Assembly: GCA_013214355.1 (NCBI GenBank)
Contig: JABSSL010000042.1
Location: 1-63,809 of the forward strand
Source: Saprospiraceae bacterium
GTDB lineage: Bacteria > Bacteroidota > Bacteroidia > Chitinophagales > Saprospiraceae
Length of the DNA stretch: 63,809 nucleotides
Reading direction: 5' to 3'
The translations under genes and the position numbers were made by a program. Positions 25,251 through 38,298 of the stretch are shown here, in pieces (position 1 is the first letter of the stretch; each line of letters starts with the position of its first letter). The notes under the pieces were generated by a model, which searched no databases, had not been told where the DNA came from, and was given only the letters and a program-made list of their open reading frames with translations.

Positions 25251-27573
25251 GATCGTTTGTTTTATTGTTTGTTTTACTGTTTGTTATTGCTTGCTTATGT
25301 TTTTCGATCTGATAGCAGACTACTTGCCCAAAAGAGATATTCTCATCATTGGGAGACAGTTCCTGATGGAAAAAGAGCTCAAAATCATGGCTCATATGAT
25401 GATGTATCAGATCTACTAGAATGCTATTCTGAAACACGCCGCCGCTAAAGGCTAGCTTTCTGATGTTCAGTCTTTCGGCTACGGATCGGATTAGAAGCGC
25501 TAAGGAAGAATGGAATGTAGCCGCTATAAATTCTATCGGCTTTCCAGCTTGAATATCCTCAATAATTCTACTCATCAGCGAATGGGTAGGAAGCTCGGAG
25601 GTGATTAAAGACTGATCAAAATATGATCCTACCGCATCTAGGCCCGAAGTTTTGAAAAACCGCTTCGCTGCTGCTTCCAATCGCATGGCTGCTTCTCCCT
25701 CATAGCTCTGAATGTCCAAGAACCCCAGTAAGGAGGCAACCGCGTCAAATATGCGGCCCAGGCTAGAAGTCTGTAACGCCTTGCCTTTGGTCAACAACTT
25801 GGAATAGAGTGTCCATTCTTGTTCACTGAATTTTTCGCGTAATAACGCCTTTGCCTCATCAATACCCCAGCAAACAGATAGGGCAGAAATACGAGGTTCT
25901 CGAGGCATTTTGTCTCCTAGGATAAAGTCAAAATACGCAAAGTGATGACTACGCTTAAATTCGTAGTTCTCATAAACGAAGAACTCACCCCCCCAAATCT
26001 GTTGATCCAATCCTAAACCAGTACCGTCCCAAATCAGGCCTAATATCCGCTCCTTCGTATGCACCAGATTGTGTTCTCCCAAAACCGCTCCAAAGTGCGC
26101 TTGATGATGCTGTACAGGGTACACCAATGCCCCATATTCAACTGCCAATTCCTTTCCGATCTGAGCAGAAGGGTAGGCCGGATGTTGATCGATCAAGATA
26201 ACTTCTGGCTTAGTACGAAACAGTTTTAGGAAGTGCTCGATAGTATCTTGGTAACGTAACTGCGCATCAAAATGCTCTAAATCACCGAGATACTGACTTA
26301 CATAAAGATTACCCGATTTCAACAGGCTGAAGGTGCTTTTGAGCATTGCTCCCATTGCCAAGAGTTGTTCATCAGGGAGATCTAATGCCGGATTTATGTA
26401 GGTCGGAGCCAAGCCCCTAGACCGCCGTAAGATGATCCTTTGCCGATGAAAAGGGGTATGTGTTACGACACTATCATCTTGGGGAATTACGATCTCTCGA
26501 TTATTCACCAAGACTAAATCAGCAATACCAGCTAAATCCTTGATTGCCTTATCATCCTGATATACAATCGGTGAGTTGCTAAGATTACCACTAGTAGCTA
26601 CAATCGCTCGGCCAAATCGCTGGAGAAAGCATTCAAATAGTGGGGCATAAGGTATCATCACCCCCACCTGCTCCAACCCTGGGGTTACCCCCTTGAACGC
26701 GGGCGTAGCCGAGGATTTATCTAGTAGCACAATCGGAGCAATTGGACTATCCAAAGTCTCCCATAGTTCCTTATCGATGTTGAAGTCCCGAGCTAACTTC
26801 TCCCTTGGGTACATTATCGCAAAAGGTTTGCTAGGCCGATGTTTTCGATCACGCAACAGGGCTATGGTCGACTCATTCGTAGCATCACAGGTTAGCAAAT
26901 ACCCCCCAATACCTTTGATAGCCACAATCTTACCTGCCTCCCATGCCTGTGAAACATAGTCAAGAATCTCTTTTGTTTTCTGACTAATTTCTTTACGTTT
27001 TACATCATACAAGGTCAGTAAAATGCTGCAGTCTGGATCGGAATTAGTCTGTGAGTAATAGCGTCGATCCAAGGGATCGTCATACTCCGCCTGACAGCTC
27101 GGACACATTTCAAAGGGAGCCATGGTGGTGTTAACCCGATCGTAAGGAAGCATTTTGATAATAGAAAAGCGTGGCCCGCAATTCGTACAGGTCGTAAAAG
27201 GATAATCGTACCGACGATCCTCTTTTGTTCTAAGCTCTTCGCGACAAGCAGAGCACAAAGCAAAATCGGGCGTAAGTAGTAGGTTAGGTGTTGCCGTAGT
27301 CTCACTGTGAACGATTTCAAATTGCGTGAAAGAGCGTCTAGTCTCTTCGTTCAAATGCAGGGCCGTAATCCTACTTAAGCTTGGAGCTGTTGCCAAAATC
27401 TTGTCTTTCAACGCTAGGGCTTCAGATTGCTCTGCATTGAAAACAATATGCACTCCATCAGTAGTATTATTGACCCACCCCTTCAGTCCTAGCTTGTTCG
27501 CTAGACCGAAAATAAAGGGACGAAAACCTACTCCTTGTACTTGGCCTTCAATATGGATGTGCCAGGTGTTCAT
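25228..27573 (-). CDS. hypF: HypF carbamoyltransferase
   Basis: A 781-residue protein. It has an acylphosphatase domain (HIHIEGQVQGVGFRPF at the N-terminus) and zinc-finger cysteines (CSACREEL, CTNCGPRF, CPSCQAEYDDP). A YrdC-like domain (AIKGIGGYLLTCDA, KPFAIMY) and a Kae1-like C-terminal domain (PVQHHQAHFGAVLGE, LAFSGGVFQNSIL) follow. It makes thiocarbamate on HypE from carbamoyl phosphate. The ATG at 27573 shares bases with the hypB stop (TAATG). The frame extends to 27630 but the family begins at this ATG. The last codons are a simple TTGTTT-rich repeat (25255-25285) giving an Asn/Lys/Thr-rich tail. Confidence 0.96.
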   Translation of the reverse strand: MNTWHIHIEGQVQGVGFRPFIFGLANKLGLKGWVNNTTDGVHIVFNAEQSEALALKDKILATAPSLSRITALHLNEETRRSFTQFEIVHSETTATPNLLLTPDFALCSACREELRTKEDRRYDYPFTTCTNCGPRFSIIKMLPYDRVNTTMAPFEMCPSCQAEYDDPLDRRYYSQTNSDPDCSILLTLYDVKRKEISQKTKEILDYVSQAWEAGKIVAIKGIGGYLLTCDATNESTIALLRDRKHRPSKPFAIMYPREKLARDFNIDKELWETLDSPIAPIVLLDKSSATPAFKGVTPGLEQVGVMIPYAPLFECFLQRFGRAIVATSGNLSNSPIVYQDDKAIKDLAGIADLVLVNNREIVIPQDDSVVTHTPFHRQRIILRRSRGLAPTYINPALDLPDEQLLAMGAMLKSTFSLLKSGNLYVSQYLGDLEHFDAQLRYQDTIEHFLKLFRTKPEVILIDQHPAYPSAQIGKELAVEYGALVYPVQHHQAHFGAVLGEHNLVHTKERILGLIWDGTGLGLDQQIWGGEFFVYENYEFKRSHHFAYFDFILGDKMPREPRISALSVCWGIDEAKALLREKFSEQEWTLYSKLLTKGKALQTSSLGRIFDAVASLLGFLDIQSYEGEAAMRLEAAAKRFFKTSGLDAVGSYFDQSLITSELPTHSLMSRIIEDIQAGKPIEFIAATFHSSLALLIRSVAERLNIRKLAFSGGVFQNSILVDLIHHHMSHDFELFFHQELSPNDENISFGQVVCYQIEKHKQAITNSKTNNKTNDHVLSDSR

Positions 27574-28295
27574 TACACGGCTGCTTCCTGCTTGGCGCCT
27601 TGTTTTTCCTTTACTTTTTCCAATAGCCAATTACACCATTCATCAATACCTACATCTTTGGTACTAGACACTTCCATAACCTTGATATTAGGATTGATAT
27701 CTCTGGCGTCTGCTACTACTGCATCAACAGAAAAGGGTAGATGCTCCACCAGATCCACCTTGGAGACCAGCATCATTTCACTGGTTAAAAACATGCGAGG
27801 GTACTTTTTAGGCTTATCATCACCCTCCGTCGTAGCAATCAAGGTGATCCGATAATCTTCCCCTAAGTCGAAGGAGGCCGGGCACACTAAGTTCCCTACA
27901 TTTTCAATGATTAGCAATTCTACCCCCTCTAAATCTAGGTTTTCCATTGCCTGCCATACCATTTGGGCCTCTAGGTGGCAAATACCTCCAGTGACAATCT
28001 GCAGCGCATCGGCTCCAGCTTCACGAAGTCGCTCTGCATCTCGTTCCGTTTCTAAATCTCCTACTAGGATCTTCATCTTCACCTTATCTCCAATCCTTCT
28101 AGCCGTTTCCTGCAAAAGGGTAGTCTTTCCACTTCCTGGCGAAGAAGTTATATTGAGGACCACAGTATTTTGCTCGGCCATCCGCTTACGTATACTTTCA
28201 GCCACAAAATCATTGGCTTTGAGCAAGTGCATAGTGGTGTTATCACAGGTTACCGTGCCTCGGGCAGCCCTATTTGATTTCTGTACTTTGTCCAT
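27573..28295 (-). CDS. hypB: HypB nickel-insertion GTPase
   Basis: A 240-residue GTPase with P-loop SSPGSGKTTL (51-60), KMKILVGDLETERDAERL, and the metal-site Cys/His region GGICHLEAQMVWQAM. Switch/guanine motifs (ENVGNLVCPASFDLGEDY, LVSKVDLVEHLPF) follow. With HypA it delivers nickel to the large subunit. There is no long His-rich N-terminal tail, so it should not store nickel. It is the first gene of the run hypB-F-C-D-X-E-globin-NHL-permease. The palindromic operator-like site at 28423-28440 lies 128 bases upstream. Confidence 0.96.
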   Translation of the reverse strand: MDKVQKSNRAARGTVTCDNTTMHLLKANDFVAESIRKRMAEQNTVVLNITSSPGSGKTTLLQETARRIGDKVKMKILVGDLETERDAERLREAGADALQIVTGGICHLEAQMVWQAMENLDLEGVELLIIENVGNLVCPASFDLGEDYRITLIATTEGDDKPKKYPRMFLTSEMMLVSKVDLVEHLPFSVDAVVADARDINPNIKVMEVSSTKDVGIDEWCNWLLEKVKEKQGAKQEAAV

Positions 28296-28422
28296 TTTGA
28301 ATCGCTTTTTTTACTAAAAATCTTTGTTTATAGCTTGGTACTATTTGTTGCAATTGAAGAAAAATAGCTGCAACAGCAGTAAGGTATGGAGTTGATCTGA
28401 ATTAGAAAAGAAACTCAAGAGT

Positions 28423-28440
28423 TTAGAAAACATTTTCTAA
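28423..28440. promoter_or_regulatory. TTAG-N10-CTAA palindrome upstream of hypB (putative TetR operator)
   Basis: TTAGAAAA-CA-TTTTCTAA is a perfect inverted repeat with 8-base arms, followed by TT as in the sites at 35223 and 37612. A half-site AATTAGAAAAG lies 21 bases away at 28400-28410. It sits in the 159-base gap between the membrane-protein gene and hypB. No clear TAnnTTTG promoter box was found for hypB, so the site is called from its identity with the other two copies. Confidence 0.65.
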
Positions 28441-28454
28441 TTCTTATCATCTCA

Positions 28455-29315
28455 TTAGGCCGGCCTTCTGGCACCTTCTTCCTGTAAAAAATAGTTAAAA
28501 ACGAAGGTCATCGCCAGCAAAAAGAGGGAAGCCACTATACCTAAAGCAGCATTGAGGTAAGGAGGGGCGGTGAGTGAAATACGAATGAGAACAGTAGTCA
28601 ATACGAAGGCGGAATAACGAAAAATCTTGGGGTATTCTAGGGTATACCTCAAGGCAATTAATACAATTAGAATATCGCTGAAGATCAATACGGTGTAAAA
28701 GGTATTGAACGAGCTGAGATAGCTTCCATTTTCAAAAAAAGACCACACGTCAAAAAGGCCAATAACAAGGAAGACGATCAGCAGCATAATGGCAACCAAC
28801 TTCTTGAAGTCTATAAATTGCTGATGTTCTTCCTGGCTTTCCGTGAGTCTAATCCGTTTCTGTGTCCGATAATACACCCCAATGACGATAAAGATGGCTA
28901 AACTCCCAAAGGCATCAGCGACCATCTTCAGTACCGGTCCATCGAGATTATTCCAGATGACAGGTTCTTCAAAGTGACTGAATTCCTTGAAAGCTGATCG
29001 GATTAAAATTAGGGATAGGATCTCTAATTGTTTACCTACAGATACTCCTACTGAATTGGGCAGGACAAAAATCAATGCCAATAACTCGGTCAATAATAAG
29101 AGTGTAAAGGCAAGCTCAACGGCAAAGAAATGATTGTGAATATTGTTTTCAAAGGGCAGCCAATGTCGCACCGCTAGTTCAGCGATGATCAAGCCCACGA
29201 GGAAAGCATAGACCAACAGACGACTGATCGTCTCATGGGTGTGATGCCGTTTCCAGTATACATCCAACTGATCATATACACGACTAGCGATCGGTAGTAC
29301 TAATCTTGATAGCAT
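28455..29315 (-). CDS. multi-pass membrane protein of the hydrogenase cluster, unknown function
   Basis: A 286-residue protein with about seven or eight hydrophobic helices (first near 32-48, last near 258-278) and no signal peptide. A charged, His-bearing N-terminus (YWKRHHTHETISR) precedes helix 1, and a hydrophilic loop around 150-168 carries KKRIRLTESQEEHQQ-type residues. No haem-binding CxxCH or obvious quinone motif was seen, although paired His residues near the membrane surface are present. It starts 27 bases after hypA. Group 2a hydrogenases are soluble, so this could be the membrane partner or a regulator; I do not recognise the family. Confidence 0.7.
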   Translation of the reverse strand: MLSRLVLPIASRVYDQLDVYWKRHHTHETISRLLVYAFLVGLIIAELAVRHWLPFENNIHNHFFAVELAFTLLLLTELLALIFVLPNSVGVSVGKQLEILSLILIRSAFKEFSHFEEPVIWNNLDGPVLKMVADAFGSLAIFIVIGVYYRTQKRIRLTESQEEHQQFIDFKKLVAIMLLIVFLVIGLFDVWSFFENGSYLSSFNTFYTVLIFSDILIVLIALRYTLEYPKIFRYSAFVLTTVLIRISLTAPPYLNAALGIVASLFLLAMTFVFNYFLQEEGARRPA

Positions 29316-29342
29316 AAATAGGGTAGGAGCAGCAGGTAAAAT

Positions 29343-29708
29343 CTATTTAGCGGCAAGCTCCTCTTCTTTGTCGAAATGAACCCGATGGATCAATAACTCA
29401 GTTCCTTTGACCACATTATTATTAGGCTTGCCGCAGCTGCAGACAAATTTGTAGTTTTCTACGGCAGATTGAATCTGACATTCTGAGCAAAAGACCTCAA
29501 TAGGGATCAGTTCAATATTGAGCTTTACGGTCTGATACTTTTCCTCTGCCGTAGTAACCGCTTCAAAGGCATTTTGCATCAAGATCGGTTCAACATTCGC
29601 CAGCAAACCGATCTTCATATCAATCGCCGTCATGGCTTCCAGGTCTTCCTTAGAAAACTCAGATTCAAGTGTAGCAAATATGTTTCTTACCAGTGAAATC
29701 TCGTGCAT
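29343..29708 (-). CDS. hypA: HypA nickel-delivery zinc protein
   Basis: A 121-residue protein starting MHEISLVRNI, with the Ni-binding His2. A C-terminal zinc site is made by CSEC and a tight CSC pair (VCSCGKP) where CxxC is usual. Partner of HypB. It is encoded apart from hypB, between the TPR gene and the membrane-protein gene, with 27 and 38 base gaps. Confidence 0.93.
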   Translation of the reverse strand: MHEISLVRNIFATLESEFSKEDLEAMTAIDMKIGLLANVEPILMQNAFEAVTTAEEKYQTVKLNIELIPIEVFCSECQIQSAVENYKFVCSCGKPNNNVVKGTELLIHRVHFDKEEELAAK

Positions 29709-29746
29709 GCTTAGTTTTTAATTTGCTTCTCCCACAAATATCGATT

Positions 29747-31258
29747 TTACAGGGCAACCGTTGCTCTTAGTTTCTCTAAAAGTGCAAGGTGCTTATTGGC
29801 TTCCGCAATCATTTCCTCATGATCAACCAAGGTTTTCACCTCCGCGACTTTCACCAACATATCTTGATAGCGCTCTTCATTGAAAGACTCGGGGTCATTT
29901 CCAACATCCCAACTCGCCTCTAGGAAGTTCAATAGCGTAATCGCTCTTTCGTAAGGGTAGGCCTCGGTGCGAACATCCAGGGCTTCCTGATAATAGAAGA
30001 GGGCTTTCTCGTGATTATCCGTCAGGACGGCAGCTGGGAATTTAGTAAAAGCATTGCCATAGTTATTGCAGATCATCCCGTATTGATATGGGTATCTATC
30101 TTTTGTGAAAAAGCGTAGCGCTTCATCAAAGGAAGCCACGGCAATCCCCGCCCAAATACTCTTCTTCTTCTGCTCAGATGGCATATCGCTATATAAGACG
30201 GCCAGGTTATGGTGAATATCCGCAAATACATCTGGCGCGACTTCCTTGCGGAACACCTTCAAAGCTTCTTGGTAGCTTTCTATCGCAGGTTTAAAGAATT
30301 GAGGATTTCCATTCTGAGCCCAGGTATAGAGCAGGGTCCCTTTGCGATATTGAGCATTACCAGCTAATTCCTCCAGGCCTTCCTCTGTAAAGATCTTAAT
30401 GGCTCTAGTCGAATAGCCTAAAGACTCCGAATAACTCTCCGAAATATTGGCAATATGGGCAGCATCCAGTAACAACAAGCCAGTCTCCGCCTTACGTTCT
30501 GATTGTTCATAGGATTGCAATACCCCCCAAAGCGTTGACTTTAGTTTTTCTAATAATTCCAAGTCATAAGGCACTGTCAATTGTTGCATCCAAGACTGAC
30601 ACAAGGTATGTTGCCACTCTACCTTTGCCTCTTTGGATAATCGCTCAGGGTTAATTTTTTCCAAAACCTCAGTGGCCTTGTCTGCATGTTGCAAATCAAT
30701 CAGAAGCAGGGCCAATTGACGAGCTGAAAAGGCATGGTACTCTTCGTTAGGGGAGCATTTAAGTGCCTCCTCATAAAAGTAGACCGTCTTCTCCACATCG
30801 AAATTGTCTGAGGTAGCCGCATAATGCCGAAGTATGGCATTGTTGTGCATTAACCGATATTCCTCAAAAGGAGTGTAATGGGAGATCAGCTCACTAGGAT
30901 TGACTGGAATGCCTTGCTGTAGACGATTGATGAAATCCAGCTCCTGGAATAAAGAAGGGTTTGCTTCTTGGAGATAAGCATAAGCTTTCTCGTAATTATT
31001 GAGCTTAGCAAACAGGATGCCCAGTAAATTAGCTTCTGTAAGGGCTATTTCTTCTGGTAATAGAAAGGGCGGTTGGAAATTTAGCCAATCCAATGGGAAC
31101 GCGATCTCACCATTTTTGATCAGCACGGAATGAGCACTGGGTATCGGGCGATTTTCTAACAGATCTAGCACATTTACTAGTTCATGTAAACGCTCCTCTT
31201 TATGGATAATGGCCTGGATTTGTTCATGAAAGTCAGTTGTCGCAAATATGGATAACAT
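29747..31258 (-). CDS. TPR protein of the hydrogenase accessory operon
   Basis: A 503-residue cytosolic protein. Residues 1-130 are not clearly repetitive (MLSIFATTDFHEQIQAIIHK). From ~130 on it is built of TPR-like helical pairs, with motifs such as KTVYFYEEALKCSPNEEY, SYQEALKVFRKEVAPDV, IHHNLAVLYSD, CNNYGNAFTKFPA and ALFYYQEALDVRTEAY. Its start overlaps the 107-residue gene by 26 bases. TPR proteins occur in extended cyanobacterial HupSL maturation clusters (from memory), where a role in small-subunit assembly is suspected. Here too, a scaffold for Fe-S or subunit assembly is the likeliest guess. Confidence 0.8.
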   Translation of the reverse strand: MLSIFATTDFHEQIQAIIHKEERLHELVNVLDLLENRPIPSAHSVLIKNGEIAFPLDWLNFQPPFLLPEEIALTEANLLGILFAKLNNYEKAYAYLQEANPSLFQELDFINRLQQGIPVNPSELISHYTPFEEYRLMHNNAILRHYAATSDNFDVEKTVYFYEEALKCSPNEEYHAFSARQLALLLIDLQHADKATEVLEKINPERLSKEAKVEWQHTLCQSWMQQLTVPYDLELLEKLKSTLWGVLQSYEQSERKAETGLLLLDAAHIANISESYSESLGYSTRAIKIFTEEGLEELAGNAQYRKGTLLYTWAQNGNPQFFKPAIESYQEALKVFRKEVAPDVFADIHHNLAVLYSDMPSEQKKKSIWAGIAVASFDEALRFFTKDRYPYQYGMICNNYGNAFTKFPAAVLTDNHEKALFYYQEALDVRTEAYPYERAITLLNFLEASWDVGNDPESFNEERYQDMLVKVAEVKTLVDHEEMIAEANKHLALLEKLRATVAL

Positions 31259-31556
31259 CTCTGTTTGTTTTTAAAGTTCCTCTCGCATCTTTCCGGATGC
31301 CACGTTGTAAAATACTAGCAAAGGTTTTAGCCTTCTTTTCCGAATTGTAGATATCAATCTTCCGACAAATAAGTTTGAATGGATTTTCGATCGCGATGTA
31401 AATCATGGTTAGGTGCCAGAGGCCCTTTCGCTCCAAAAGCTGATACTGCACTTCTGTATTCATCAGCCATTTATCCTCTACCAATAGCCGGAAATCCTCT
31501 CGTTTCCCAAGAAAATCGGTGCGGCCATAGAAGGGGATATCTGGAGAAATATACAT
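31233..31556 (-). CDS. hypothetical 107-residue protein, paralogue of the 118-residue protein at 37245
   Basis: A small soluble protein without signal or Cys clusters. Its C-terminal ~75 residues align without gaps to the 118-residue protein at 37245-37601. Shared positions include W-L-x-x-T-x-V, ERKGLWHL versus KRDGMWEI, and KDARGTLKTN versus KDQRGTLKVN. The pairing of one copy inside the hydrogenase operon and one between the two TetR genes suggests a shared ligand or partner. It overlaps the TPR gene by 26 bases and starts 10 bases after the 122-residue gene. I do not know the family. Confidence 0.75.
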   Translation of the reverse strand: MYISPDIPFYGRTDFLGKREDFRLLVEDKWLMNTEVQYQLLERKGLWHLTMIYIAIENPFKLICRKIDIYNSEKKAKTFASILQRGIRKDARGTLKTNRDVIHICDN

Positions 31557-31566
31557 GCGGACCCAA

Positions 31567-31935
31567 TTATAATGTCACATTCAATAGGCTCAATTCTTTC
31601 TGGTTACGGTAGGCTAGGACTCGATCGGTATGATCGATTTCATGATCAATTAGTAATTCGTGTAGAGCGATGGTTTTGTCTCCTTTGGCATTGCGCCCCT
31701 TCAGCATATGCTGTTTGGCTTTATGCAGTTGCTTGAATAGCTCGTCGCCCTCTGGTGCAATCAGCAAGGTTCGTCGATCCGGGTAATAGACTACATTGGC
31801 ATTGAGGGCATCTCCAAAGATCTCAGTCGCAATCTCATGATTAATGACGAGGTGAGAAGATTTCAATTGCACCTTACCTTCCAGGGTAGTGGCCGTTCTT
31901 AGATCTTGCTGCATCTTTTGTGGTGGAATAAACAT
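31567..31935 (-). CDS. hypothetical 122-residue hydrogenase-operon protein
   Basis: A soluble, mostly beta-type protein by residue pattern (VVYYPDRRTLLIAPEGDELF), with a His/Asp-rich C-terminal part (ALHELLIDHEIDHTDRVLAYRNQ). The DHEIDH cluster could bind a metal, but nothing proves it. It starts 3 bases after the maturation protease stop and is followed 10 bases later by the 107-residue gene, so it is translated in the same operon. Not recognised. Confidence 0.72.
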   Translation of the reverse strand: MFIPPQKMQQDLRTATTLEGKVQLKSSHLVINHEIATEIFGDALNANVVYYPDRRTLLIAPEGDELFKQLHKAKQHMLKGRNAKGDKTIALHELLIDHEIDHTDRVLAYRNQKELSLLNVTL

Positions 31936-31938
31936 GGA

Positions 31939-32433
31939 TTAAGCTTTTAATTCTTGTAAAAGCAATTCTACCACTTTATTACCTCCCGCTTTTGCTTCCT
32001 CCGTCATTCCAACATTAAATTTAGTGCTGTCGATCGCAATGAGGTAAACCACGATATCTTCAGGATAAGCATCTCCAAGCATCTTTTTTGCATAGGAAAG
32101 GGCTTGACTCCACTTTAAACTGTGCAGAAATACCAGTGGATCGTCTTCTATCTCCGCCTCGACGGCAGAGGCTGGCAGTTTATAAGCGGTTCCTACCGGT
32201 TCTCCCGTGTTGATCACAGCGTCTACCAAGATAATGCGATCATGGCCTTTCAGCTGGAAAAGCACTTCGAAAGCGGAAGTTCCCATATCAAATAGGCTGA
32301 CATTTTCAATTTCACCCATCTGCTTCTTGAGCTCCTCAATCACGTAAATTCCGACCCCATCATCGGCCCGGACAGGATTTCCGAAACCCAAAACCGCTGT
32401 TTTCTTCGTCATGGTAGTGTTTACCGTAGTCAT
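31939..32433 (-). CDS. [NiFe]-hydrogenase maturation protease (HybD/HupW type)
   Basis: A 164-residue endopeptidase of the HyaD/HybD family. LGFGNPVRADDGVGIYVIEEL near residue 15 carries the first metal-sensing Asp. A second acidic site is SLFDMGTSAFEVLF, and DRIILVDAV follows. It trims the C-terminal peptide of HupL once nickel is in place. The ATG 21 bases further in (MTKKTAVLGF) is an alternative start that fits the family better. It is separated from hupL by 78 bases holding a terminator, so it is probably expressed at a lower level than the structural genes. Confidence 0.93.
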   Translation of the reverse strand: MTTVNTTMTKKTAVLGFGNPVRADDGVGIYVIEELKKQMGEIENVSLFDMGTSAFEVLFQLKGHDRIILVDAVINTGEPVGTAYKLPASAVEAEIEDDPLVFLHSLKWSQALSYAKKMLGDAYPEDIVVYLIAIDSTKFNVGMTEEAKAGGNKVVELLLQELKA

Positions 32434-32460
32434 TCCTCCAATTTAGACATTCTAAAAAAG

Positions 32461-32488
32461 AAACCCGCCAAATAGAATTGGCGGGTTT
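32461..32488 (-). terminator. Terminator between hupL and the maturation operon
   Basis: A perfect 11-bp stem, AAACCCGCCAA (32461-32471) with TTGGCGGGTTT (32478-32488), around a 6-base loop. Read on the minus strand it is followed by CTTTTTT. It lies 23 bases after the hupL stop. Downstream genes would depend on read-through or on a weak internal promoter. A small palindrome TTTAGA-CAT-TCTAAA (32442-32456) follows directly. Confidence 0.85.
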
Positions 32489-32511
32489 ATGAAAGCTAAG
32501 ATTCTTCGATT

Positions 32512-34107
32512 TTACAGTTTGAATTTTGCTAGCTCCTCGCCAGTCTTGTTGTCATGTGCATGAACGGTACAAACCAAGCAAGAATCGAAGGAGCGAGCCA
32601 CCATTCCTACCTCTACTGGATCATGTGGATCCTCAATCTCGGTTCCCTCTAATGCTGATTCGATAGGACCTGCCTTACCTTCACTATCATTTGGACCAAC
32701 GTTCCAAGTTGTAGGGGCAATGATCTGATAATTCTCGATCACCCCATTCTTGATCTTGATCCAGTGCGCCAAAGCACCTCTAGCAGCCTCGGTTGCACCC
32801 CAACCAATACCATCTCTTTCAGTTGGCTTGATGTAGAATTCGTCATCTAAACGAACTTGACTTAGCCAGTCATTGATTAAAGTGTACAATCTAGGTGCTT
32901 CGTGTACGCGAGCTAGCACTCTGGTGAATACAGATGGGCCCATTTTCTCCATGATATCACCAAATAGGGGATCCTGGATCTGATGAGCTGCATTTGCTGG
33001 GTTAGCGTTCATGATTACCCGAGCTAAAGGTCCGGTCTCCGCTGCATGTCCCATGAATCGGGGCGCTTTGGACCAGCTGTATTTATCATTAAAATCAGAG
33101 TTCTCCAATGTCCTGGAGTCTGTAGATGCCATCGGAGCTGGTTCATCAAATGGGTGCAAGGCATCCGCTTGGTTCATATACCAAGCGTGCTTCACGTGCT
33201 CGGCTACTTGCATGTGATCTGCAGCGTGGTAGTTCTTGCCATCCCAGAATCCAGAAGAGCTGATTACAGCTGGATTTCGAGCCTCAATAGTAGGCTTATT
33301 GTACATATCCTTGTGTAGATAAGTACCCCAAGCAAGGAATTTACCTACACCCTGACCGAATTTATCCAAACCAAACTCAATTCCAGCGCGTAATAGTAGT
33401 CCCAGGTCACTATTAAAATGAGATTCATTCTCGTTCAACCACTCCATCATATCATCCCAAGACTTGATCTGCATATAGCGCTCAATAGAGCAACCTAACC
33501 ATACAGGCTCTAGCCAATCATTACGGAATTGATTCATGATGGCATGCGCACGTGTGATATCCTTCAAAGTGGGTGCACACATAACCCCACCTGGTACCAT
33601 ATAACTAGAGTGCGGCCACTGTCCACCAAATAATGCATATACTTCTACAGGACGACCAGAAGCAGTTACGCCCGTTTGGAAGGAAGTACCCACATAAGCG
33701 GCCCATCTTTTTACCACTTCTTGATATAACGGCTTGTTAGCAAACTTCTTGTTGGCCATATCCGTAGCAAAGATGGCGTAAAACCATCTTGGAATACTTT
33801 GAATAGTTTCGGCAGCCTGCCCAATCGCTCTCAATAAAAGTGCATTTGGAGACAAGGTCGTTTGCCAGGCCACGTCCAAGGCCGAAGAGGCGCAGTAAAG
33901 GTGAGAACCTCCACAGATACCACAAGCCCTAGGCGTTACAATCAAGCCAGATTGAGGGTCTTTACCTTGTAAGATTTTTTCAAAGCCGCGAAACATCGCC
34001 GCTTGGGTATGGGCTCTTGTCACTACCCCATTTTCCATGTAAACCTTCACATCCAGATCCCCTTCAACCCGGCCTACTGGAGATATATTTAATTCTTTTA
34101 AAGACAT
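32512..34107 (-). CDS. hupL: group 2a [NiFe]-hydrogenase large subunit
   Basis: A 531-residue catalytic subunit that oxidises H2. Its L1 motif is RACGICGGSH (Cys62, Cys65) after RVEGDLDV, and its L2 motif is FDSCLVCTVH (Cys510, Cys513, His516). Cleavage after His516 would release a 15-residue peptide. L2 has Ser where most families have Pro (DPC). The N-terminus (ISPVGRVEGDLDV, FRGFEKILQGKDPQSGLIVTP) closely resembles cyanobacterial HupL and the mycobacterial Huc large subunit, hence group 2a. There is no Tat or membrane signal, so cytosolic. It starts 44 bases after the second small-subunit gene and is followed by a terminator. Confidence 0.96.
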   Translation of the reverse strand: MSLKELNISPVGRVEGDLDVKVYMENGVVTRAHTQAAMFRGFEKILQGKDPQSGLIVTPRACGICGGSHLYCASSALDVAWQTTLSPNALLLRAIGQAAETIQSIPRWFYAIFATDMANKKFANKPLYQEVVKRWAAYVGTSFQTGVTASGRPVEVYALFGGQWPHSSYMVPGGVMCAPTLKDITRAHAIMNQFRNDWLEPVWLGCSIERYMQIKSWDDMMEWLNENESHFNSDLGLLLRAGIEFGLDKFGQGVGKFLAWGTYLHKDMYNKPTIEARNPAVISSSGFWDGKNYHAADHMQVAEHVKHAWYMNQADALHPFDEPAPMASTDSRTLENSDFNDKYSWSKAPRFMGHAAETGPLARVIMNANPANAAHQIQDPLFGDIMEKMGPSVFTRVLARVHEAPRLYTLINDWLSQVRLDDEFYIKPTERDGIGWGATEAARGALAHWIKIKNGVIENYQIIAPTTWNVGPNDSEGKAGPIESALEGTEIEDPHDPVEVGMVARSFDSCLVCTVHAHDNKTGEELAKFKL

Positions 34108-34151
34108 TTTGTTCTGTTTTTGAATTTTGCAAATTTGTCCGTACGCCCTGC

Positions 34152-35117
34152 CTATTTGGAGTTACCATAATTCTTAGCAGAATCAGGTGATCCCAGTACT
34201 TTACCCACTCCAGCTTTGAAATAGTAGAATAACTTAGGCTCGCCTGGAGGCGTCTCTTGCGGTAAGAATCCGAGGTACTTCATCGTTTTGAAGACAGATC
34301 CTTTCTTTAAGTCATGATGAGGGAAACCGGGTTCGGTACATCCCAAGCAAGGATGATTGGCCCTGGTCTTACTAGAATGTCGGTTCCACAGAATGCGATT
34401 ACAACTAGCTCGAGTCATTGGTCCTCTACATCCTACTTCATAGAATAAGCAGCCACCTCGTTTACCAAAGTTACCATCTACCTTTTCACTAAATGCTACG
34501 GCATTAGGGCAGCCATTCTGCACGAAATCAGTGAAGAATGTTTTTGGACGATGGTATTCATCAATCAAAACATCTCCAATCCTTCCGGTTGAAATAGCGA
34601 CTAAAATTTGAGTGATCCAATCAGGGTGAGCTGGACAACCCGGAATATTAATCACGGGCAAACCTCCTTTGGACACAAAGTCAGCACCAAGGAATCCGCC
34701 TTTCTGTTTCTTGTGGAATTGGAAACCAGTAGATTCACTCGGGTTAGGTGGAACTGCAGGGATACCTCCCCAAGTAGCACAGTCTCCCACTGCTACGACA
34801 AACTGAGCTACATCGGATAATTCCTTGATCCAATCCTGCATAGGTCGGTCCGCGAAGTAGTTCATTTTACCTGTTCCATTAGGCCCTTGTACTACCGAAC
34901 CTTCAAAAACAAAAATATCTAATTGAGTTTTGCCAGAAATGCAATCGTTCAGCAGATCACTTACTTGATGTCCAATTTCCAGGCCTACGGTTGGGTGCCA
35001 CAAGATGTTAATTCCGAAGTCTACAATTAGTTCCACAACTGTAGGTTCTTCTGCATTGAGAAAGGACATCGTGTTACCACTACACGCCCCACCCTGTAGC
35101 CATAATACATTAGCCAT
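34152..35117 (-). CDS. hupS: group 2a [NiFe]-hydrogenase small subunit, copy 2
   Basis: A 321-residue iron-sulfur subunit. ATG 35117 (MANVLWLQGGACSGNTMSF) is chosen because the family starts there; the longer frame to 35255 would run through the promoter and operator. Cluster ligands: Cys12 with Asn15 in place of the second CxxC cysteine, as in cyanobacterial HupS; then GDCATW, NIPGCPAHP, GGCLFYEVGCRGP, SCNRI and HPCLGCTEP. No Tat signal and no C-terminal anchor, so it is a soluble dimer partner of HupL. It has its own promoter with a palindromic site. It is closely similar to copy 1 except at the C-terminal ~35 residues. Confidence 0.95.
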   Translation of the reverse strand: MANVLWLQGGACSGNTMSFLNAEEPTVVELIVDFGINILWHPTVGLEIGHQVSDLLNDCISGKTQLDIFVFEGSVVQGPNGTGKMNYFADRPMQDWIKELSDVAQFVVAVGDCATWGGIPAVPPNPSESTGFQFHKKQKGGFLGADFVSKGGLPVINIPGCPAHPDWITQILVAISTGRIGDVLIDEYHRPKTFFTDFVQNGCPNAVAFSEKVDGNFGKRGGCLFYEVGCRGPMTRASCNRILWNRHSSKTRANHPCLGCTEPGFPHHDLKKGSVFKTMKYLGFLPQETPPGEPKLFYYFKAGVGKVLGSPDSAKNYGNSK

Positions 35118-35201
35118 GTTGAAAGGATGTTTTTGTTTGTCTATAATGTTTCGATCCCGTTTGAGAAACAGAAATCTTCTTCTACAAAATAGTAGGATGT
35201 C

Positions 35202-35232
35202 CAAATATAATAACTTGAAGTTAATTAGAAAA
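35202..35232 (-). promoter_or_regulatory. Bacteroidota-type promoter of hupS copy 2
   Basis: On the minus strand, TATATTTG (35202-35209) matches the TAnnTTTG -7 consensus. Nineteen bases upstream is TTTT (35229-35232) at the -33 position. The -33 box lies inside the palindrome at 35223-35244. Transcription would start near 35195, leaving a leader of about 78 bases before ATG 35117. Confidence 0.6.
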
Positions 35233-35244
35233 GGTTTTCTAATT
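35223..35244. promoter_or_regulatory. AATTAG-N10-CTAATT palindrome over the hupS2 promoter (putative TetR operator)
   Basis: A perfect inverted repeat with 10-base arms (AATTAGAAAA and TTTTCTAATT) around GG. It covers the -33 region of the hupS copy 2 promoter, the place where a repressor would block polymerase. The same outer arms recur at 37612-37633 and in shortened form at 28423-28440. Confidence 0.72.
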
Positions 35245-35264
35245 TTTTTAATCACTTACCTAAC

Positions 35265-35286
35265 TTATTGAAAACCTATTCTAATC
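35265..35286. promoter_or_regulatory. Degenerate second operator-like site upstream of hupS2
   Basis: ATTG-AAAACCTATT-CTAAT keeps the spacing and 15 of 18 core bases of the TTAGAAAA-NN-TTTTCTAA site. It lies 42 bases (about four turns) upstream of the strong site. Two TCTAGA words follow (35285-35290 and 35296-35301). It could allow cooperative binding. Confidence 0.4.
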
Positions 35287-35369
35287 TAGACTTATTCTAG
35301 ATAAGGCAGAATGACCAAGAAAACCTTAGCCTTGAGCATTTCAACAACGGGAAAAATAGGGTAGGGGAA

Positions 35370-36332
35370 TTACTTAGAAAGGTCTCTCTTTTTTGCGTTC
35401 TTAAACGGTGCGTGAAGCGCTGACTTGAAGTAATGTCCAATTTTGCTTTCTCCTTCTGGTACTTCCTTGACAAAGTGACCAAGGTACTTCATTGTCTTAA
35501 AGACACTTCCTTTTTTCAAGTCGTGATGAGGGAAGCCAGGCTCTGTACAGCCCAAGCAGGGGTGGTTAGCTCGGGTTTTTGAAGAGGTTCGATTCCAAAG
35601 AATTCGGTTGCAAGAGGCTCGAGTCATGGGTCCACGACATCCAACCTCATAAAAAAGGCAACCCCCTCTTTTACCAAATTGACCTTCTACTCGATCAGCA
35701 AAAGAAGTCGCATTGGTGCAGCCCGTCTGCACAAAATCCGTAAAAAAGGTTTTGGGGCGATGGTAATCATCCAGTAAAACATCTCCCATGCGCCCATTTG
35801 CGATGGCAACCAGAATTTGAGTCATCCAATCCGGATGGGCTGGACAACCTGGAATATTGATGACGGGGAAACCGCTTCTAGATTTGAAATCTTCGCCCAG
35901 GAAACCGCCCTTCTCCTTTTTATGGAACTGCATGCCAGTAGATTCCGACGGATTTGGAGGCACGGCCATGATTCCACCCCAAGTTGCACAATCCCCAATG
36001 GCCACTACATACTTCGCTACTTTAGCCAACTCCACTACCCAATCTTTTGTAGGCCGACCAGCAAAGAAATTCATATTTCCACTGCCATTGTGTCCCTGGA
36101 TAACGGAGCCTTCAAAAACAAAGATATCCAAAGGTACTTCCTCTGAAAGTGCTTCATTGAGTACCTCATTCACCTGTTCCCCGATTTCCAATCCGATCGA
36201 AGGGTGATATAGAATACGGATACCAAAATCCGTCACCAATTCAATAACCGACGGTTGTTCGGCATTGAGAAAGGACATGGTATTTCCGCTACATGCGCCC
36301 CCCTTTAACCAGATCAGGTTTGTCATAGGCAT
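35370..36332 (-). CDS. hupS: group 2a [NiFe]-hydrogenase small subunit, copy 1
   Basis: A 320-residue second complete small subunit. All cluster motifs of copy 2 are kept (ACSGN, GDCATWGG, IPGCPAHPDW, GGCLFYEVGCRGPMTRASC, HPCLGCTEPGFP), including Asn in the proximal site. It therefore looks functional and not a relic. The two differ mainly at the N-terminal third (RILYHPSIGLEIGEQV versus NILWHPTVGLEIGHQV) and in the C-terminal tail. The start could be 36332 or the second Met at 36326. It is the first gene of the structural run. The 114 upstream bases of copy 2 contain a separate promoter, so copy 1 may be expressed alone or with copy 2 and hupL. No operator copy was found upstream of it. Confidence 0.95.
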   Translation of the reverse strand: MPMTNLIWLKGGACSGNTMSFLNAEQPSVIELVTDFGIRILYHPSIGLEIGEQVNEVLNEALSEEVPLDIFVFEGSVIQGHNGSGNMNFFAGRPTKDWVVELAKVAKYVVAIGDCATWGGIMAVPPNPSESTGMQFHKKEKGGFLGEDFKSRSGFPVINIPGCPAHPDWMTQILVAIANGRMGDVLLDDYHRPKTFFTDFVQTGCTNATSFADRVEGQFGKRGGCLFYEVGCRGPMTRASCNRILWNRTSSKTRANHPCLGCTEPGFPHHDLKKGSVFKTMKYLGHFVKEVPEGESKIGHYFKSALHAPFKNAKKRDLSK

Positions 36333-36481
36333 TAGTCTTGAGGATTCTCCAGTTCTGATGGATCATTAAAAGTGAACAGAAGAATAGCTTGCCTTAAAGG
36401 TATACTTAATTGCGATAAAAAGTACTATAGGAAGTTAGGACTTACTAGAAAGGAGTAAACGGAGCAAGGGCTTAACTCGCC

Positions 36482-37129
36482 CTAGCCTCCAGCTGAACGT
36501 TGTTTTAGTAAGGGTCGAATGAGTTGTTCAAATTCCGCCTGACCTTGTTCTGTGAAGTAGGGATATACCTGGTTCCAGATCATTTGTTTAAAATCTAAGA
36601 CGTTCATCGAAGCTTCCTCACCACGAATCAGATTTTGTGGAACCCAAAAGGTAATTAGAACCCATATCGCTTCAGCAATCTTATTGTACAGGCCAGCACG
36701 CGGCTCTTCGTGAATGAGTCCCCGGTTCTGGTTAAAGACAAATCTTTTGTGAATTTGGCTGATCATCTTACAAACCTGCACTTGACGTTCTGAATGCATC
36801 TCTGGATACTGCCGCTGTATTTCGAGCATATCCAAAAAATAAAAAGGGTACTTCTGGATAAAGGAATAGTACTTGGAAAGCTGATTGTCAAAGTCTATTA
36901 AATTGGGGAAAATGCGGTAAGTGGAAAGGATCTCACCGGCTTCCTCGAAGAGGTCTTCATTAACGGCCTCAATGATGGCCTCCTTATTACGGAAGTGATA
37001 GGCCAAGTTACCGGGACTAATCCCGATTTCGCTAGCAATTTGCTGCAGGCGCACATTGGCTAATCCATTCTCATTGAATAGACGAATGGAAGCCTTTATA
37101 ATTTTTTGCTTCGTATTTAAGTCCGCCAT
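36482..37129 (-). CDS. TetR-family regulator 1 of the hydrogenase island
   Basis: A 215-residue protein. Its N-terminal helix-turn-helix (TKQKIIKASIRLFNENGLANVR, read in parts, then ISPGNLAYHFRNKEAII) is typical TetR/AcrR. The C-terminal domain (~60-205) is a helical ligand domain rich in aromatic residues (KYYSFIQKYPFYFLDMLEIQ). It is paralogous to the regulator at 37669-38298 along its whole length. It lies immediately upstream of hupS copy 1, 149 bases away, on the same strand. It is a strong candidate for the protein that binds the TTAG-N10-CTAA sites; the ligand is unknown. Confidence 0.9.
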   Translation of the reverse strand: MADLNTKQKIIKASIRLFNENGLANVRLQQIASEIGISPGNLAYHFRNKEAIIEAVNEDLFEEAGEILSTYRIFPNLIDFDNQLSKYYSFIQKYPFYFLDMLEIQRQYPEMHSERQVQVCKMISQIHKRFVFNQNRGLIHEEPRAGLYNKIAEAIWVLITFWVPQNLIRGEEASMNVLDFKQMIWNQVYPYFTEQGQAEFEQLIRPLLKQRSAGG

Positions 37130-37244
37130 CAGATAGGTGATATTTTATTTCTTTCAAAGCTCGGGAAAGGATTGGGGGAAAAAGTTGTAAGTTCTTGGCC
37201 TTTCCCGGCCTTCTTATCAGTCAGTTAAACAGAAAGATCAGCGA

Positions 37245-37601
37245 TTAACTGTAACAAAAGCCAAAGTCCTCTACATTGACTTTTAGGGTTCCGCGTTGAT
37301 CTTTTGCCGCCAGTCGTCTCATGTACCAAGCACTCATTTCAGCTTTATCCTTGGATGCGTACCTAGCAATTACTTTTTTGATCAATTTTTCTGGTTGCAA
37401 GTAATGAGCAAAAACCAGGTGAATCTCCCACATCCCATCTCGCTTGACGACGTTCTCAATTACAGCAGTGTCTCTCAACCACCAATCATCAGAAAGGAAC
37501 TCCATATCAGTCTGATAACCTGCCTTTTCTACAAAATGCTGATTATTCAACAGATTCAGAAGTTCATCATAGCTGCCGTCATCTAGGTAAAATCCGTTCA
37601 T
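37245..37601 (-). CDS. hypothetical 118-residue protein, paralogue of the 107-residue hydrogenase-operon protein
   Basis: A soluble protein between the two TetR genes. From residue ~42 on (WWLRDTAVIENVVKRDGMWEI to KDQRGTLKVN, read in parts) it aligns with the 107-residue protein at 31233-31556. The N-terminal ~35 residues differ. The gene has its own promoter and a palindromic operator-like site ending 11 bases before its ATG, so it is likely a direct target of one of the flanking regulators. No family recognised. Possible roles are small-molecule binding or a regulator/assembly partner. Confidence 0.75.
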   Translation of the reverse strand: MNGFYLDDGSYDELLNLLNNQHFVEKAGYQTDMEFLSDDWWLRDTAVIENVVKRDGMWEIHLVFAHYLQPEKLIKKVIARYASKDKAEMSAWYMRRLAAKDQRGTLKVNVEDFGFCYS

Positions 37602-37611
37602 TAATTCATTG

Positions 37612-37633
37612 AATTAGAAAGCAATACCTAATT
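37612..37633. promoter_or_regulatory. AATTAG-N10-CTAATT site at the start of the 118-residue gene (putative TetR operator)
   Basis: Outer arms AATTAG and CTAATT with a 10-base spacer match the site at 35223-35244 exactly; the inner bases diverge (AAAGCAATAC). It begins 11 bases upstream of ATG 37601 and covers the predicted transcription start, a classical repressor position. Confidence 0.65.
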
Positions 37634-37643
37634 ATTTGAATTG

Positions 37644-37674
37644 CAAATCTACAGAATTTAACACAGGGCTAAAA
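37644..37674 (-). promoter_or_regulatory. Bacteroidota-type promoter of the 118-residue gene
   Basis: On the minus strand, TAGATTTG (37644-37651) matches TAnnTTTG and TTTT (37671-37674) lies 19 bases upstream, the same layout as the hupS copy 2 promoter. The -33 region overlaps the stop codon of the upstream TetR gene. Confidence 0.58.
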
Positions 37675-38298
37675 GTAAAAATCATAAGGCATTTGCAGCA
37701 TTTGTCCATATTCCAGCCTACCCATATCTGTAAAATAGGGTATAAATAGGTTCCAAACCGCACTCCGGTAGGATTGTACATTCGCCGGTTGGCTGGTTCG
37801 AATCGCATGCTGCGTCAACCATAGATCGAGGGTCATCCATATTTGCTCAGCGAGCTGCACAAAGACCCCATCCAAGGGTTCCTCCACCAATGCACCGCGT
37901 GACACATTGAAATCTACAATGACCTTCAACTGAGCCACCTGTGAAACTATACGCTTCTGGTGGGTCTCACCAATGGAGGGATAGGCTCTCATAATTTCCA
38001 AGGTATCCAAATAGAAGAAAATATAGGCTTGCTGTAGCTGGAAAGTATGATGAATTAGCCGGTCGATATTATCGAATAGTGGCACGATACGGTATTCAGC
38101 CAATAAATGATCTTGCTGCTTGGCTAATTCACCATATAAGGCCAATAGAATAGCTTCCTTGTTTTTGTAGTGATAGGCTAAATTGCCTACACTGACAAAG
38201 GCTTCGTCAGCAATATGCTGTAGTCTGACATTAACTATCCCATCTTTATTGAATAGTTTGAGGGCTGCAGTCAATATTTTTTGCTTCGTACTACTCAT
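37669..38298 (-). CDS. TetR-family regulator 2 of the hydrogenase island
   Basis: A 209-residue paralogue of the regulator at 36482-37129. Its DNA-binding part (VRLQHIADEAFVSVGNLAYHY, read in parts, then KNKEAILLAL) is very close to VRLQQIASEIGISPGNLAYHF of the other, so both may read the same operator. The ligand domain keeps FYLDTLEIMRAYPSI. Two sensors with similar DNA heads but different ligand pockets would let one site integrate two signals. It starts 38 bases after the end of the oxidoreductase gene upstream. Confidence 0.9.
   Translation of the reverse strand: MSSTKQKILTAALKLFNKDGIVNVRLQHIADEAFVSVGNLAYHYKNKEAILLALYGELAKQQDHLLAEYRIVPLFDNIDRLIHHTFQLQQAYIFFYLDTLEIMRAYPSIGETHQKRIVSQVAQLKVIVDFNVSRGALVEEPLDGVFVQLAEQIWMTLDLWLTQHAIRTSQPANVQSYRSAVWNLFIPYFTDMGRLEYGQMLQMPYDFYF

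Follow-up and report, generated by a model that had tools for sequence, protein, structure and literature searches.

A conserved palindromic word at hydrogenase promoters of Bacteroidota: a probable operator and its candidate TetR regulators

The window analysed here is the 63,809-nucleotide stretch at positions 1 to 63,809 of contig JABSSL010000042.1 of a Saprospiraceae bacterium (assembly GCA_013214355.1), which holds a hydrogenase island with two paralogous TetR genes. An inverted repeat with the core word TTAGAAAA-NN-TTTTCTAA precedes hydrogenase structural and maturation genes of this island, and by comparative genomics only it is a palindromic operator in front of predicted TetR target genes. 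It is likely that the paralogous PF13972-type TetR proteins repress genes of trace-gas oxidation through this operator at the core promoter. This reading was built on the word, its places, its spacing, its position in the promoter and its link with TetR, which were computed, and from which we infer binding, dimers, cooperativity and repression.

Proposed operator word and its sites in the window

It had been claimed in an original prediction that an operator TTAG-N10-CTAA marks three hydrogenase promoters of the window. The inverted repeats that it placed at 28423, 35223 and 37612, together with a weaker fourth at 35265, were found in the sequence as described, and the fourth (core at 35267) was indeed the weaker one. 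TTAG-N10-CTAA as a stand-alone motif was rejected, because it occurs in the window at chance level: 23 matches were found at up to one mismatch against 28.3 expected, and among its 4 exact copies the one at 54395 lies outside the island. The true core is the word given above, of which the two strong sites of the window (28423 and 35225) are exact copies. The promoter claim was upheld for these two, and the site at 37612 turned out to be only weak. Two exact copies were present in the whole 11,191,412-base genome, both in the island, where about 0.008 were expected from base composition. The sites and their proposed target genes are as follows.

28402 to 28419, no strand: half-site TTAGAAAAGAAACTCAAG, 21 bp from the hypB operator; score 0.9, alone not significant; similar half-sites visible in several relatives
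28423 to 28440, no strand: proposed operator of the hypB transcription unit, TTAGAAAACATTTTCTAA; exact, score 31.1
27573 to 28295, minus strand: hypB, proposed target by its position relative to the operator and by orthologues
35225 to 35242, no strand: proposed operator O1 of hupS2, TTAGAAAAGGTTTTCTAA, within AATTAG..CTAATT at 35223 to 35244; exact, score 30.0; aligned in 15 loci
35267 to 35284, no strand: weak upstream operator of the hupS2 array, ATTGAAAACCTATTCTAA, 42 bp from O1; 3 mismatches, score 9.8; columns conserved in the alignment
34152 to 35120, minus strand: hupS2, hydrogenase small subunit copy 2, proposed target; query of the hupS locus search, aligned
37614 to 37631, no strand: weak operator before the 118-residue gene, TTAGAAAGCAATACCTAA; score 10.9

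Fifty-five sites from other loci, among them close relatives, went into the scoring matrix, and 60 Markov-shuffled windows served as the chance baseline. Shuffled windows gave scores of at least 10 at a rate of 0.17 per window, with a maximum of 18.6 and an average of 6.7. Since the shuffled scores peak at 18.6, the sites at 28423 and 35225 are beyond chance, and those at 37614 and 35267, each taken alone, are within the chance range. The 35267 site falls within the aligned array of relatives, and 3 of the 13 near relatives printed (L042, L043 and L046; L, G and C numbers denote loci, genomes and contigs of our sets) have a comparable degenerate site, scoring 8.9-10.2, in the gap ahead of the 118-residue gene.

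That the sites are AT-rich chance palindromes is excluded for the two strong ones and possible for the two weak ones taken alone. Such an explanation could draw on the chance level of TTAG-N10-CTAA and on the genome as a whole at up to three mismatches, where the core had 151 matches against 223 for the reversed word and thus no excess. The reversed-word controls described below contradict it (0 against 96 copies in 80 loci, 8 against 41 in 199 genomes), and as an account of the word it is exceedingly improbable. A large regulon was rejected as well, because the genome at up to three mismatches holds fewer matches than the reversed control.

Conservation of the word and its link with TetR proteins

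Conservation was followed in 80 hupS loci (L041-L120; 1,364,751 bases), which were the best 80 of 184 in a scan of named genomes. The core at 0-1 mismatch was present in 96 copies (41 exact), and the reversed word in none. Ninety-four copies lay within 500 bp upstream of hupS2 (66), hypB (16), the 118-residue gene (7), hypA (3) or tetR2 (2), and the remaining two were inside a hypA match and elsewhere, respectively. When 15 close upstream regions were aligned, the core was the best-conserved part.

A site at hupS was defined as one with at most two mismatches within 350 bp of a hupS copy, and two loci with too little upstream DNA (L045 and L112) were left out of the TetR/site count. Upstream of hupS, such a site was found in 52 of 52 loci with a TetR homologue and in 3 of 23 loci without one that had at least 4 kb upstream (L109, L098 and L091), while three further TetR-less loci with short flanks had no site (0/3). 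The genome of L109 carries the TetR gene on the same contig, just beyond the stretch, and that of L098 has a TetR pair on another contig. Similarly, a site before hypB occurred in 18 of 30 TetR loci versus 1 of 24 others. Two hundred random pairings gave on average 1.9 pairs concordant for site and TetR and 0.0 discordant. The original prediction had named a lack of conservation in orthologous loci as an objection to itself; the site is kept there, and it goes with TetR. The Flavobacteriaceae loci examined were mostly without both TetR and site, and must therefore be controlled in another way. Locus L107, from a record titled Rickettsiales, is a Bacteroidota-type locus with a TetR pair and exact sites, and is perhaps a mislabelled bin.

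The other objection raised there, many equally good matches elsewhere, was met by the small number of exact copies in the genome and by their placement in the family. Among 199 family genomes, 41 exact copies were found in 29 genomes (reversed word: 8 in 8 genomes), and 40 of the 41 were on contigs with hydrogenase structural or maturation genes, G114 being the exception; gene-by-gene reading gave the placement of 23 copies, and that of the other 18 follows from where they lie on the contig of a HupL match. A search of 13 genomes for the core at up to one mismatch gave 18 places versus 7 for the reversed control, and by coordinates 15 of these places were at hydrogenase or hyp genes and 3 were not (one in G206, two in the Kordia genome G201). 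HupL was present in 29 of the 199 genomes (G001, with a HupL2-like match only, was left out) and an R1-like TetR, of a clade described below, in 36 at an expectation value (E) of at most 1e-40; the exact site coincided with HupL in 22 genomes and with TetR in 25. Four site genomes had no TetR at this threshold (G138, G101, G171 and G114). For G138 (L284) and G101 (L271) the TetR was present after all on reading the locus, and the G171 contig ends inside hupS, too early for TetR. The HupL genomes of the family formed a second set, in which 25 of 27 hupS2 copies with upstream DNA had a site with at most two mismatches.

The presence of two TetR genes in the island, also part of the original prediction, was confirmed by domain searches, in which both proteins matched PF00440 (49.3 and 39.5 bits, cut-off 24) and PF13972 above the cut-off.

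37669 to 38298, minus strand: tetR2, regulator of clade R2; PF13972 1e-14, PF00440 4.6e-10; AlphaFold model with a predicted local distance difference test score (pLDDT) of 94.5
36482 to 37129, minus strand: tetR1, regulator of clade R1 by the tree; PF00440 4.2e-13, PF13972 2.6e-9

The TetR tree contains two old clades, R1 and R2, each with a support of 99 in the Shimodaira-Hasegawa-like approximate likelihood ratio test, and both clades appear to read the same word. Either paralogue seems to be enough, because the genome of Phaeodactylibacter xiamenensis (L059), in which only an R2 protein of the group was recognised, and that of Chitinophaga costaii (L120), in which only an R1 protein was recognised, have both kept their sites; the other TetR matches of P. 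xiamenensis are at 32% identity, one of them with a different helix. All R1 and R2 rows share S, G, Y and H in the region of the recognition helix; N is found in all R1 and 90% of R2 rows, and L and A in 98-100% of R1 rows and 62-81% of R2 rows. Other PF13972-like proteins of these genomes also have G-N and Y-H, and specificity is therefore not set by this region alone. Two further TetR relatives encoded in the genome of the window (L138 and L140) had no site of positive score in the surrounding 3 kb, the scan covering these two relatives. Redox or metal sensing through conserved TetR cysteines was considered and rejected, because no cysteine column reaches 40% in R1 or R2.

The word recurs with TetR in two other enzyme systems. 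Six genomes with an exact site have no HupL (G019, G034, G063, G095, G101 and G149), and there the site precedes the gene of another kind of hydrogenase small subunit (31-32% identity), with a TetR that branches with R1 (branch support 93) and usually adjoins hypE/hypD, being on another contig in some genomes. The large subunit of one such locus (L264), which is followed by a Rieske gene, has HofG (5aa5, 465 bits) as its closest solved structure. A class-wide search for the second small subunit at E ≤ 1e-90 returned 0 of 395 genomes, which is uninformative given the strict threshold and a sample evidently without the query genome G034. A TonB-dependent receptor gene (L264:3137-5281) is divergent from the HofG-like hydrogenase with operators between them, and perhaps serves metal uptake.

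The other system is carbon monoxide (CO) dehydrogenase. The genome of the window has a cox operon on contig C147 (L156), whose coxL product scores 1249.7 bits against TIGR02416 (cut-off 991.15), above the CoxL equivalog threshold for form I aerobic CO dehydrogenase. A site of score 15.6 sits 97 bp before coxM, and downstream in the operon are genes for a TetR (43% to TetR2), an orphan hydrogenase large subunit, hypC and hypD. Among 298 family genomes, coxM was found at E ≤ 1e-80 in 42, the upstream DNA of all of which was read, and a site of score at least 15 preceded it in 6 of the 42 loci (three of the genus of the window, G001, G020 and G517). TetR was present in four of these six, the contigs of G020 and G517 ending early, whereas none of the 28 TetR-less cox loci read through coxF had a site (largest score 12.8). 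A single branch inside R2 (100 support) unites the cox TetR proteins. Because of their small number and their relatedness, these cases amount to one or two events. The large subunit of the C147 operon (L156:14104-15582) is [NiFe]-hydrogenase-like, with no small subunit seen between, and is a possible gas sensor. Six such proteins were aligned; Phe replaces the first cysteine of RxCGxC and the last histidine is gone, with three other ligand cysteines retained. An order-wide search for this protein (HupL2) found 19 of 396 genomes, with itself plus 20 matches of 38-44% identity, and in G517 it is on another contig. A further site of score 24.7 (L156:3785-3802), kept in two congeners, lies between an XdhC-like and a 157-residue gene, which are divergent. 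The dedicated circuit for hydrogen (H2) oxidation that had been proposed for the island is supported by these comparisons as a candidate, and it is not a matter of one island only, as it would extend to a second hydrogenase class and, in three genera, to CO dehydrogenase.

The weight of the case is carried by site conservation and by the recurrence of the TetR link in other settings, and several results weigh against it. The TetR state changes only three times on the hupS tree, which leaves 2-3 independent pairs, and the Fisher values of the TetR-site link (2e-15 and smaller) therefore overstate independence. Kordia (L091, G201) has no such TetR, and has a hupS site at two mismatches only and two 1-mismatch copies away from hydrogenase genes. 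In G114, where no TetR passed E ≤ 1e-40, the exact site has no recognised hydrogenase gene nearby (L272). Eleven of the 36 genomes with an R1-type TetR are without an exact site; G013, G030, G037 and G165 have a 1-mismatch site, G094 has a mismatched site before hypD, G008, G038, G136 and G192 have none of score at least 14 in the stretch read, and G106 and G173 have none at hupS2. The hupS2 of G106 (L278) has no site within 350 bp (best, 7 mismatches), and that of G173 (L017) has at best 5 mismatches in the 175 bp read; because 25 of the 27 copies of the same set agree, these two genomes leave the odds unaltered. In L117 the hupS copy used in the tree lacks the site and another copy has it, and in G020, which has a cox site on a contig that ends after coxL, HupL2 was not found. 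The exact site of G114 (L272:5137-5154) adjoins a gene with helix-turn-helix (HTH) and nucleotidyltransferase domains.

Some of these results would suit another, unlinked DNA-binding protein that uses the word while TetR is merely a genomic neighbour, namely the few site-bearing contigs without TetR (that of L098, G020 and G171) and the TetR genomes G106 and G173 without a site at hupS2. We regard this as quite improbable, as site and TetR occur together in three settings (Huc-like hydrogenase, HofG-like hydrogenase and CO dehydrogenase), the genomes of L098 and L109 do have TetR, and the G171 contig is truncated inside hupS. Furthermore, several loci that bear the site (L047, L056, L059 and L066) have no recognised 118-residue gene, the other neighbour, so that gene is not needed.

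Promoter architecture and proposed mechanism

The TAnnTTTG boxes that had been predicted at the promoters of hupS2 and the 118-residue gene were found at both, and a second palindrome, called box A, lies upstream of the hupS2 operators.

35202 to 35209, minus strand: -7 box of hupS2, TATATTTG, TAnnTTTG type
37644 to 37651, minus strand: -7 box of the 118-residue gene, TAGATTTG; TAGnTTTG in 10 of the 13 near-relative gaps printed
35285 to 35301, no strand: box A, TCTAGACTTATTCTAGA, of TTAGA-N5-TCTAA type with 2 mismatches; N5 spacing enriched

The -7 consensus TAnnTTTG is given in PMC9723704. A -7 box was searched as TAnnTT[TG]G near the proximal sites of 55 promoters of other loci. It starts 15-16 bases past the proximal site (+15/+16) in 24 of the 55 and overlaps the site end (-3) in 6, while on the mirror side, used as control, a box was seen in 3 of 55, none at +15/+16 and two overlapping the site end. 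Two points count here against repression at the core promoter: the -3 class is weak, as two of the three mirror matches also fall at -3, and in 25 of the 55 proximal sites no TAnnTT[TG]G box was found at -3, +15 or +16, 24 of which have none within 40 bp either. The right arm of the proximal site was placed at what we take to be the -33 promoter element; the right arm of O1 stands at the -33 position of hupS2, other proximal sites often do likewise, and in some promoters the proximal site may meet the -7 box. Positions over -33 or -7 would suit steric repression.

Tandem spacing was measured between neighbouring sites of score at least 8 within 70 bp of each other. Among 53 such pairs the distance was 21 bp in 17 and 23-24 bp in 21, and the same register is seen in the window (28402 to 28423, 21 bp; 35225 to 35267, 42 bp). 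TTAGA-N5-TCTAA occurs upstream in 16 of the 55 hupS regions, against a shuffled mean of 0.6 and a largest value of 4, and among spacers 0-14 only N5 and N8, the latter being the operator itself, were clearly above the shuffles. These regions did not assign box A to either R1 or R2.

The proposed mechanism is as follows. The core word would be the operator of one PF13972 TetR family that includes R1, R2, the cox-linked branch and the branch of the second hydrogenase, and each copy would take one TetR dimer. With copies mostly 21-24 bp apart, neighbouring dimers would sit on about the same face of the DNA, and their binding may be cooperative. Where the gene-proximal copy covers the -33 region, as it often does, or sometimes the -7 box, bound TetR would block RNA polymerase. 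A signal, for which H2, CO, the redox or carbon state and a hydrogenase-derived partner are candidates, would release the repressor, and hupSL and the hyp genes would then be expressed together. TetR may also repress cox in places, and its own neighbour genes.

Alternatively, the same proteins might bind the word and activate transcription through contact with polymerase from -33, in promoters without a good -33 element of their own. The right arm is at the -33 place in 24 of the 55 promoters, which may thus lack such an element, and tandem upstream copies would also fit an activator. Activation nevertheless seems unlikely. TetR proteins are mostly repressors, the overlap of -7 box and site end in 6 of the 55 promoters (the weak class) is a place that suits blocking, and the 37614 site lies downstream of its own -7 box. 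A nucleic-acid structure such as a hairpin, terminator or mRNA element would agree with the near-perfect inverted repeat, but where a -7 box was found the site is mostly upstream of it and hence untranscribed from that promoter, and neither regular tandem spacing nor dependence on TetR is expected of hairpins; we judge this very improbable.

Beyond repression by TetR as such, one may ask for the signal. Many H2 loci have a second small subunit and a 118-residue paralogue that travel with the TetR genes, and in the cox operons an orphan large subunit that has lost one active-site cysteine adjoins hypC and hypD. Because duplicated hydrogenase parts travel with the TetR genes, the signal could come from hydrogenase-derived proteins, and a single TetR family could control all three systems of aerobic trace-gas oxidation in some of the Bacteroidota; we consider this a doubtful, speculative extension. 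The orphan large subunit might retain a stripped metal centre and serve TetR as its gas sensor.

Repression by a TetR protein at a palindromic operator is a known mode; as far as the open-access search can assure, the regulator group, its targets and its sharing over three enzyme systems are new. The model of TetR2 resembles the structures 3nnr (Maqu_3571; Foldseek TM 0.83, sequence E 5.5e-24) and 3rh2 (Sama_0099; TM 0.81, E 2.4e-21) in its HTH and all-helical domain. Those two proteins are only 21-22% identical and their titles name neither operator nor target, whereas here a putative operator is assigned and the predicted targets are hydrogenase and CO dehydrogenase genes. In the HoxA/HupR systems with the regulatory hydrogenase HupUV/HoxBC, H2 is sensed through a sensor hydrogenase, a kinase and a response regulator. 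The candidate circuit is like them in its dedicated control of uptake hydrogenase genes and differs in having TetR proteins; at E ≤ 1e-60 the genome of the window showed only HupL and the orphan HupL2-like open reading frame, and no search was made for a kinase or response regulator.

The enzyme nearest to the large subunit of the island is the group 2a [NiFe]-hydrogenase Huc of Mycobacterium smegmatis (7uus, 7utd), and a Bacteroidota-associated HucL clade is described in PMC7784904. No TetR control of Huc was found among the open-access matches listed. For CO dehydrogenase, the regulators CooA and RcoM are haem sensors; they also control CO oxidation genes, whereas the present circuit would use TetR, with an orphan hydrogenase-like large subunit in the cox operon. 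Among the matches listed from open-access PMC (PubMed Central) papers there was neither TetR control of these hydrogenases or CO dehydrogenase nor a description of how Bacteroidota switch on their enzymes for trace H2 and CO oxidation. The conserved operator and its regulator family suggest that a dedicated switch governs life on hydrogen and, in a few genomes, on carbon monoxide too. They offer a testable handle in Flavilitoribacter nigricans DSM 23189, Phaeodactylibacter xiamenensis KD52 and Chitinophaga costaii A37T2, and the operator word could mark H2 and CO regulons in uncultured genomes.

Other genes of the hydrogenase island

The island comprises tetR2, the 118-residue gene, tetR1, hupS1, hupS2, hupL and maturation and accessory genes to hypB and beyond, the named genes all being on the minus strand. 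The genes listed below complete those given above.

37245 to 37601, minus strand: gene of the 118-residue protein, aligned with its paralogue at 31233 to 31556
35370 to 36332, minus strand: hupS1, hydrogenase small subunit copy 1; PF01058, PF14720; 73% to copy 2
32512 to 34107, minus strand: hydrogenase large subunit, Huc-like (group 2a); best solved relative Huc

The closest solved structure of the large subunit is Huc (7uus, 640 bits), the best non-Huc match reaching 202 bits. The hydrogenase is Huc-like and of group 2a by this large-subunit match, and it is predicted to oxidise H2. The 118-residue protein and its paralogue had no sequence match in Pfam, NCBIfam or PDB, and the model of the former (pLDDT 84.4) had no Foldseek match at E ≤ 0.001. 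The two small proteins are encoded in different places, one between the tetR genes (37245-37601) and one within the hydrogenase operon (31233-31556). The single large subunit is accompanied by two small-subunit genes (34152-36332), and the conserved cysteines are retained in both copies.

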